A program made the position numbers and the translations under genes. Source: Sediminibacterium sp. (GTDB lineage: Bacteria; Bacteroidota; Bacteroidia; Chitinophagales; Chitinophagaceae). Taken from it: a stretch of DNA of 64,000 bases. The notes beneath the pieces are model-generated. The model ran no database searches and was not told the origin of the DNA. It was given only the letters and a program-made list of their open reading frames with translations. Of the stretch, positions 42,709-44,240 are shown one piece after another. The DNA lies in contig NZ_JAHVAA010000012.1 in NCBI RefSeq assembly GCF_019264485.1, positions 62,001 to 126,000 of the forward strand, in the 5' to 3' direction. Each line of letters opens with the position of its first letter. Positions within the stretch are counted from its first letter, which is position 1.

Positions 42709-42736
42709 CAAATCTACTACTTAAACTCTTGTGCAA
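42709..42736 (-). promoter_or_regulatory. Promoter of the MATE transporter gene
   Basis: On the minus strand, TTG (42734-42736), a 17-bp spacer and TAGATTTG (42709-42716) fit the Bacteroidota consensus. The start codon is 9 bp after the -7 element. Confidence 0.6.
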
Positions 42737-42778
42737 CTCAGTGGCTTTTTTTATATCATTGCAAACAATATCGACCCA

Positions 42779-43615
42779 ATGGCAAGAAAAACAATGGCAT
42801 TCTATCCACCCACACCACTGCTCCAGGAACAGGGGCGTAAGCTTCGTGTGGAAATAGGTTCGCTGTATGTTGCCTGTTCCATTACCGATAAAGACCAATC
42901 ACTGGCATTTGAATTTTTTGAGTTGGAGAATGATATCAATGACTGGAGCGATGTTTTTTTTGAAATAAAAAGCAATTCACAGATATTAAATAAATACACA
43001 GGCAGCGTTGATATTTTGTACAATTTTCAGGAAGTGCTATTGGTTCCTATGGAGAAATTGAGCAGTGCTGCTGCATCAGATTATCTTACCCTCATTTATG
43101 GTGATTCACCTAAGTATGAAATTAAACATGATAAACTTGCTGATCCATTAGGCATCATCATGATATACCGGGTAAAAACCAGCATTATAGACCAGGCAGT
43201 ACGTCATTTTCATTTGTTCCAGGCACAACATCTTTATACCAGTATTATAAAACGTCTAACTGCAAGAACCGATTTGCCGGTTAATTTTCTCAAAGTACAG
43301 GTATACCCATACTCATTCATTGCAGTGCTCATGATAAATCAGCAACTACAGATGATTCAGACTTTCGCATTTAAAACAACAGAAGATGTCTGTTTTTATC
43401 TTTTATCGATGTTAAAAGAACATGGTATTACACCAGCAGAAACGCAAATAGAAATGAGTGGCTTTATTGAACCACATGGCGATCTGCATAGAAGGCTCCA
43501 ACAATTATTTACCAACAGACATTTTCATAATCTACCCGAAGAATCATTATTACCGGGTATGCTGGAAGAATACCATCCACATACATTCACCCCATTTTTT
43601 AATACGGTAGCATGA
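42779..43615 (+). CDS. DUF3822-family protein
   Basis: This 279-residue protein matches the Bacteroidota family DUF3822. Paired segments (LRVEIGSLYVACSITDKDQSLAFEFFEL; LKVQVYPYSFIAVLMINQQLQMIQTFAFKTTEDVCFYLLSML) suggest a split actin-like/ASKHA ATPase fold, but I see no clear phosphate motifs. It overlaps the start of rsmD by 4 bp (ATGA), a neighbourhood I recall as frequent in this group, so a link to ribosome assembly is possible. The start at ATG 42779 (MARKTMAF) avoids translating the upstream promoter region. No direct function is known. Confidence 0.83.
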   Translation: MARKTMAFYPPTPLLQEQGRKLRVEIGSLYVACSITDKDQSLAFEFFELENDINDWSDVFFEIKSNSQILNKYTGSVDILYNFQEVLLVPMEKLSSAAASDYLTLIYGDSPKYEIKHDKLADPLGIIMIYRVKTSIIDQAVRHFHLFQAQHLYTSIIKRLTARTDLPVNFLKVQVYPYSFIAVLMINQQLQMIQTFAFKTTEDVCFYLLSMLKEHGITPAETQIEMSGFIEPHGDLHRRLQQLFTNRHFHNLPEESLLPGMLEEYHPHTFTPFFNTVA

Positions 43616-44151
43616 GGATTATTTCAGGAAAATGGGGAGGCAGGAGGGTGAGTCCGCCAGCCAATATGCCACATACAAGGCCAACCACTGATATAGCCAA
43701 AGAGGGACTATTCAATATTCTCCAGAACAGGATGAATTTTGAGAACAGCAAAACACTAGACCTTTTTGGGGGAACAGGATGTATCAGTTATGAACTGGCA
43801 TCAAGAGGTGCAGCCGATCTTACTATTGTGGAAAAAGATACCGTTATGCATGGCTTTATAAAAAAGAATGCTGAAATGCTGGGTATGCAAAACCATAAGA
43901 TTCTGAAGATGGATGTATTTGCTTACCTGAATACCTGTACCGAAGATTTTGATTTTATCTTTGCCGGTCCTCCTTATGCATTGGGCCCCATCGATGAAAT
44001 TCCCAAAATCATAGTAGCGAAGAAAATGATCCGCAAAGCCGGCTTTTTTGTATTGGAACATACCCCAAGAAATAACTATGAAAAATTTGAAGGGTTCAGC
44101 TTTCAACGAAATTATGGAACAACCTTATTTTCTTTTTTTATAAACGAATAA
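43612..44151 (+). CDS. rsmD: 16S rRNA (guanine-966-N2)-methyltransferase RsmD family, with altered catalytic motif
   Basis: This 179-residue Rossmann-fold methyltransferase carries the RsmD N-terminus (MRIISGKWGGRRVSPP, RPTTDIAKEGLFNIL) and the SAM-binding LDLFGGTGCISYELASRGA. RsmD methylates G966 of 16S rRNA. The catalytic motif IV, normally DPPY, reads GPPY here (G119 in FIFAGPPYAL; GGT codon at 43966-43968, one base from GAT). The Asp normally holds the target amino group, so activity may be lost or reduced. The rest of the gene is intact and it overlaps the DUF3822 gene by 4 bp. Confidence 0.9.
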   Translation: MRIISGKWGGRRVSPPANMPHTRPTTDIAKEGLFNILQNRMNFENSKTLDLFGGTGCISYELASRGAADLTIVEKDTVMHGFIKKNAEMLGMQNHKILKMDVFAYLNTCTEDFDFIFAGPPYALGPIDEIPKIIVAKKMIRKAGFFVLEHTPRNNYEKFEGFSFQRNYGTTLFSFFINE

Positions 44152-44156
44152 TGCGA

Positions 44157-44237
44157 GGTGAATGGTCAATGGTCAATGGTGAATGGTGAATAAAACGTTT
44201 CCCATTCACCATTCACCATTCCCGATTCACCATTCAC
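44157..44237. repeat. Heptad-word hairpin, GGTGAAT family
   Basis: The left arm (44157-44191) is five units of GGTGAAT/GGTCAAT. The right arm (44204-44237) is the complementary ATTCACC array. The stem is about 33 bp with few mismatches and the loop about 12 nt. It lies between tandem rsmD and bioD and ends 3 bp before the bioD ATG, so it would occlude the bioD start in a read-through transcript. Confidence 0.88.
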
Positions 44238-44240
44238 ATC

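Follow-up and report, generated by a model that had tools for sequence, protein, structure and literature searches.

The motif (N/D)PP(Y/F), or motif IV, is routinely used to call amino-methyltransferases active or dead. The mechanistic model for these enzymes is RlmJ, a DPPY protein that methylates N6 of an adenine in 23S rRNA (m6A2030) and in which activation of the target amine is ascribed to the catalytic Asp and the carbonyl of the first Pro (PMC3814359). The target-base pocket of RlmJ is lined by the motif VI residues W195 and P197, and the D164A mutant is inactive, as are the equivalent mutants of EcoDam and EcoRV (PMC3814359). RsmD (YhhF), the 16S rRNA (guanine966-N2)-methyltransferase, is represented by structures from Mycobacterium tuberculosis (6m1c and 3p9n) and Escherichia coli (2fpo). 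Here, we analyzed an rsmD gene found in a 64,000-nucleotide stretch of DNA from Sediminibacterium sp. (contig NZ_JAHVAA010000012.1, positions 62,001 to 126,000; hereafter, the window). The gene is an ordinary single-copy rsmD of Chitinophagales/Saprospirales-type Bacteroidota, in which motif IV has changed from DPPY to GPPY throughout the lineage and is maintained in that form by selection.

An intact RsmD with Gly in place of the motif IV Asp

The rsmD open reading frame (ORF) occupies positions 43612 to 44151 on the forward strand and encodes a protein of 179 residues that contains FDFIFAGPPYALG. The product matches PF03602 over residues 1 to 176 with 131 bits (cut-off of 24), i.e., over its full length, and its best NCBIfam match is TIGR00095, at 106.2 bits slightly below that model's own cut-off of 117.5 bits. 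An AlphaFold2 model built from a 90-sequence alignment reached a pLDDT of 96.2, and its nearest structure was that of M. tuberculosis RsmD (6m1c; Z 26.8, rmsd 1.6, 175 residues aligned), followed by 3p9n and then 1ws6, 2fpo, 2fhp, and 2ift (Z 21.7 to 26.8), with E. coli YhhF (2fpo) at Z 24.2. The three-dimensional fold is thus that of RsmD, shared over the full length with the M. tuberculosis and E. coli enzymes (Z 24 to 27, 172 to 175 residues). Since the 3.64-Mb genome encodes no other full-length PF03602 protein, no second RsmD is available as a stand-in, and a backup copy elsewhere in the genome was rejected as an explanation.

Motifs X and I are likewise intact. In the motif X region (R23-P24-T25-T26-D27, positions 43678 to 43692, forward strand), the first four residues are invariant and D27 nearly so among the Gly-type sequences of the order, and in the SAM-binding motif I (L49-D50-L51-F52-G53-G54-T55-G56, positions 43756 to 43779, forward strand), D50, F52, G54, and G56 are invariant in the same set. 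Single copy number, conserved motifs I and X, and a conserved target G966 are all shared with RsmD (YhhF), from which the Sediminibacterium protein, whose activity is predicted, differs by a Gly for Asp in motif IV and by Pro152 in the motif VI loop. Motif IV itself (A118-G119-P120-P121-Y122) lies at positions 43963 to 43977 on the forward strand, directly after strand 4 of the model, and reads GCC GGT CCT CCT TAT, with the Gly119 codon GGT at positions 43966 to 43968. The original prediction of GPPY in an otherwise intact RsmD was therefore correct. The motif departs from (D/N)PP(Y/F) at its first residue and keeps the PPY part, which is invariant among the Gly-type proteins of the order. This departure lowers the claim that the chemistry is identical to that of RsmD, while homology to RsmD rests on the whole sequence and on the fold.

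Two neighboring features were also recorded. Upstream, a DUF3822 (PF12864) gene (positions 42731 to 43615, forward strand) overlaps the start of rsmD by four bases (ATGA), and a relative adjoins rsmD in 29 of 29 close relatives; a literature search found no mention of DUF3822, and its product may cooperate functionally with RsmD in Bacteroidota. Downstream, between rsmD and bioD, positions 44155 to 44240 form an imperfect hairpin of 7-base TGAATGG-type units, with an RNA folding energy of -42.4 kcal/mol (z -7.25). The genome contains 39 occurrences of the unit pattern, compared to 0 of the reversed control, and these units are a dispersed repeat family.

Distribution and history of Gly119

Gly119 was universal in the window's RsmD and its 29 closest homologues, which together use all four Gly codons. 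The original prediction had presented this residue as exceptional, which is accurate with respect to the RsmD family at large and inaccurate with respect to near relatives; the alignment of such relatives that it had proposed revealed a clade-wide Gly, which is one half of the contrary evidence that it had itself named, a clade-wide Gly with demonstrated methylation. Its suggestion that G966 is unmethylated in this particular strain is rejected as far as a single strain is concerned, given that Gly characterizes the lineage and most of the order.

To delimit this distribution, 225 RsmD proteins were aligned, 156 from the window's order (censused as Chitinophagaceae plus Saprospiraceae/Lewinellaceae) and 69 from elsewhere in the class. 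GPPY was present in 135 of the 156 order proteins, and Asp was present in 68 of the 69 others. Of the 398 order genomes covered by a DNA-pattern census, 325 contained F-A-G-P-P-Y, including all 14 genomes of the window's genus. DPPY or DPPF was found in each of 30 genomes sampled from the phylum's other classes; Asp thus occupies this position in nearly all remaining Bacteroidota sampled. Among named records, Gly-type RsmD was found in Sediminibacterium, Hydrotalea, Ferruginibacter, Puia, Ilyomonas, Chitinophaga, Saprospiraceae, and Lewinella, and Asp-type RsmD in Bacteroidales, Flavobacteriales, and Sphingobacteriaceae and, within the order, in Flavipsychrobacter and some Saprospiraceae; motif IV is GPPY in L395 and DPPY in L446. 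The Asp-type proteins of Bacteroidales, Flavobacteriales, and Sphingobacteriaceae have the same length as the window's RsmD, share approximately 40 to 52% identity and the E149-H150 core of motif VI with it, and differ by DPPY or DPPF at motif IV and by a residue 152 that is mostly S, K, A, or T and seldom Pro. None of the papers listed in our literature search contains GPPY, and the papers searched yielded no previous account of this form of RsmD.

Outside the order, Gly was present in two small groups, with GPPF in family f64 (L206, L319, and L320) and GPPY in one f72 genome (L324). In these proteins motif VI reads EHP or EHDK, and they are probably independent occurrences that lack Pro152. 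Further unusual forms of motif IV in RsmD of the class include DAPY or DAPF, with Ala as second residue, and DPPH (L204, L214, L215, and L328; L070 and L075).

The Gly codons used at position 119 in the 225-protein set were GGA (44), GGT (41), GGC (30), and GGG (21). On the tree of these proteins, codon 119 underwent 73 third-base changes within the Gly rows and 9 second-base changes, which indicates that Gly119 is under purifying selection. GGT and GGC are a single transition away from Asp codons, and 16 to 17 Gly/Asp state changes were counted in total once more Asp-type members had been added to the tree. In the gene trees, Asp lineages are nested within the Gly clade, suggesting that the remainder of the active site has retained its competence. 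As the outgroups carry Asp, the most parsimonious scenario is that Gly arose at or close to the base of the order and then reverted to Asp several times; the exact order of these events is uncertain, the gene tree being weakly supported at many branches. Altogether, GPPY appears to be a re-tuned active site of ancient origin rather than an error.

Covariation of Pro152 with Gly119

A column-by-column comparison of Gly-type and Asp-type proteins singled out position 152. This residue belongs to the motif VI loop (E149-H150-T151-P152, positions 44056 to 44067, forward strand), which directly follows strand 5 in the model and has the pattern LEH[TNSD]P in company with Gly119. Pro152 was present in 125 of the 135 Gly-type proteins of the order, compared to 2 of its 46 Asp-type proteins and 6 of 84 Asp-type proteins from other orders. 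Pro152 is neither necessary nor sufficient, since ten Gly-type proteins of the order and all four Gly-type proteins outside it lack this residue, and eight Asp-type proteins have it.

To control for kinship, Gly and Asp proteins were paired along tree paths that share no branch. On the first tree, Pro152 was restricted to the Gly member in 13 of 16 such pairs and to the Asp member in none, corresponding to an exact family-wise p of 0.00024 (all 65,536 sign flips, 1033 column-residue traits). On a second tree, made with a different program and with suspect columns excluded, the score was 14 of 15 pairs with none in reverse (p of approximately 0.0001). Both tests took all branches of the two trees, including many with weak support; a separate pair test built into the tree program and restricted to strongly supported branches gave approximately 3.4 of 5 pairs in favor and almost none against, too few for significance. 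Among eight traits fitted in a Pagel test of correlated evolution, Pro152 had the highest likelihood ratio (58.2), a ranking that covers these eight traits and not all columns. The association is also visible within a single genus, where the Gly-type L038 has EHTPR and the Asp-type L279 has EHTQQ. Pro152 is thus a statistically firm second-site partner of Gly119.

Other candidate partners fared less well. At residue 151, all 135 Gly-type proteins of the order have T, N, S, D, or H, yet this residue is polar in most of the order's Asp-type proteins too and was rejected, taken alone, as unspecific. Gly32, located in the motif X helix, had a good score on one tree (10:0) but a weak one on the other (7:1) and was not relied on. 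The acidic IDE residues that follow motif IV were rejected as a general source of compensation: Asp128 is present in 92 of 135 Gly-type proteins of the order and varies among the others.

The target base and a candidate remodelled acceptor site

The 16S rRNA of the Sediminibacterium sp. genome contains TTCGATGATACGCG, including the base that we take to be G966 by E. coli 16S numbering. The surrounding context is preserved in the window's genome as well as in 11 further genomes of the Gly type and 6 of the Asp type, and in these 18 genomes with readable 16S the target base was neither lost nor altered. A looser pattern applied to 34 genomes, most of them unmatched by the stricter one, returned chance-like matches only, and the relation between residue 119 and h31 was thus assessed on the 18 genomes. 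No paper listed in a literature search dealt with m2G966 in Chitinophaga.

Class I methyltransferases have strands 4 and 5 side by side in the sheet. The AlphaFold2 model places these strands at residues 113 to 118 and 140 to 150, making residues 119 and 151-152 the first after them, and the two loops are thus predicted to face one pocket. This arrangement would parallel RlmJ, in which motifs IV and VI both line the target-base pocket and which differs in methylating adenine N6 with an essential catalytic Asp164, a position equivalent to the Gly in Sediminibacterium RsmD. H150-x-P152 of RsmD is spaced in the same way as W195-x-P197 of RlmJ, a possible parallel drawn in this analysis. We propose that the GPPY RsmD most likely still methylates N2 of 16S G966 and that a remodelled loop of motif VI, [T/N/S/D]151-Pro152, beside motif IV compensates for the side-chain acceptor lost at residue 119. 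This loop would supply or position a substitute acceptor next to the backbone carbonyl of Pro120, itself unchanged, and the two may work together. The original prediction had offered compensation by another residue as one possibility; the Pro152-Gly119 covariation gives that idea direct support. We consider it probable that the gene encodes a selected, active m2G966 methyltransferase with an acceptor site remodelled through motif VI. The broader claim, that most of the order relies on an active guanine-N2 RNA methyltransferase devoid of the motif IV Asp/Asn and with the acceptor moved to the motif VI [T/N/S/D]-Pro, is put forward more tentatively, as plausible but somewhat short of even chances.

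The best-surviving alternative, which we judge rather unlikely, is that the Pro120 carbonyl alone is enough in RsmD, so that Asp is dispensable and Pro152 is simply allowed once Asp is gone; for example, Asp119 might need the backbone NH of residue 152, which is absent in proline. A Pro152 that follows Gly and rescues nothing would also account for the covariation, and the ten Gly-type proteins of the order and four from outside it that lack Pro152 fit this reading, as does the repeated interchange of Gly and Asp. However, the prevalence of Pro152 in the order's Gly-type proteins (125 of 135) is above what mere permission predicts.

Loss of catalysis is a live rival as well because Asp-to-Ala replacement kills related enzymes, the catalytic Asp being essential in RlmJ, EcoDam, and EcoRV (PMC3814359). 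GPPY RsmD would then be dead clade-wide and kept as a 30S assembly factor that binds h31, with G966 unmodified. The E. coli rsmD knockout is viable and grew well among the rRNA methyltransferase knockouts compared (PMC7056703), indicating that the m2G966 mark can be dispensable. We nonetheless hold this reading to be unlikely, as a dead enzyme need not keep motif I and PPY invariant across the order's Gly-type proteins, Asp reappears in several lineages within the Gly clade, and a coupled change at Pro152 is more natural in a working pocket.

It is more improbable still that GPPY RsmD acts on another base or another atom. Motif IV composition is tied to product type elsewhere, e.g., in the dimethylating KsgA/Erm enzymes with their differing motif (PMC3814359), but G966 is kept in every readable 16S of both Gly-type and Asp-type genomes and Gly and Asp are interchanged inside one genus (L038 and L279), both of which make a changed target less likely, and the fold and N-terminal motif are unaltered. 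Finally, a sequencing or assembly error at codon 119, the wrong base call entertained in the original prediction and favored only by the one-base distance from GAT, is refuted by the four Gly codons used across independent genomes and by the order-wide census (325 of 398 genomes).

The preferred reading, that of an active and remodelled GPPY RsmD, bears on how motif IV is interpreted. These results caution against labelling GPPY RsmD inactive and, equally, against assuming an unmeasured m2G966 in these organisms. Positions 119 and 152, taken as a pair, make a direct mutational test possible, and the natural Gly/Asp pairs found in one genus provide test material for the activation of exocyclic amines. 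A selected, clade-wide GPPY with a coupled residue at a second site would demonstrate that the (N/D)PP(Y/F) rule can fail and, if the proposal is true, it would represent a natural relocation of a catalytic role that is usually held fixed in (N/D)PP(Y/F) enzymes.
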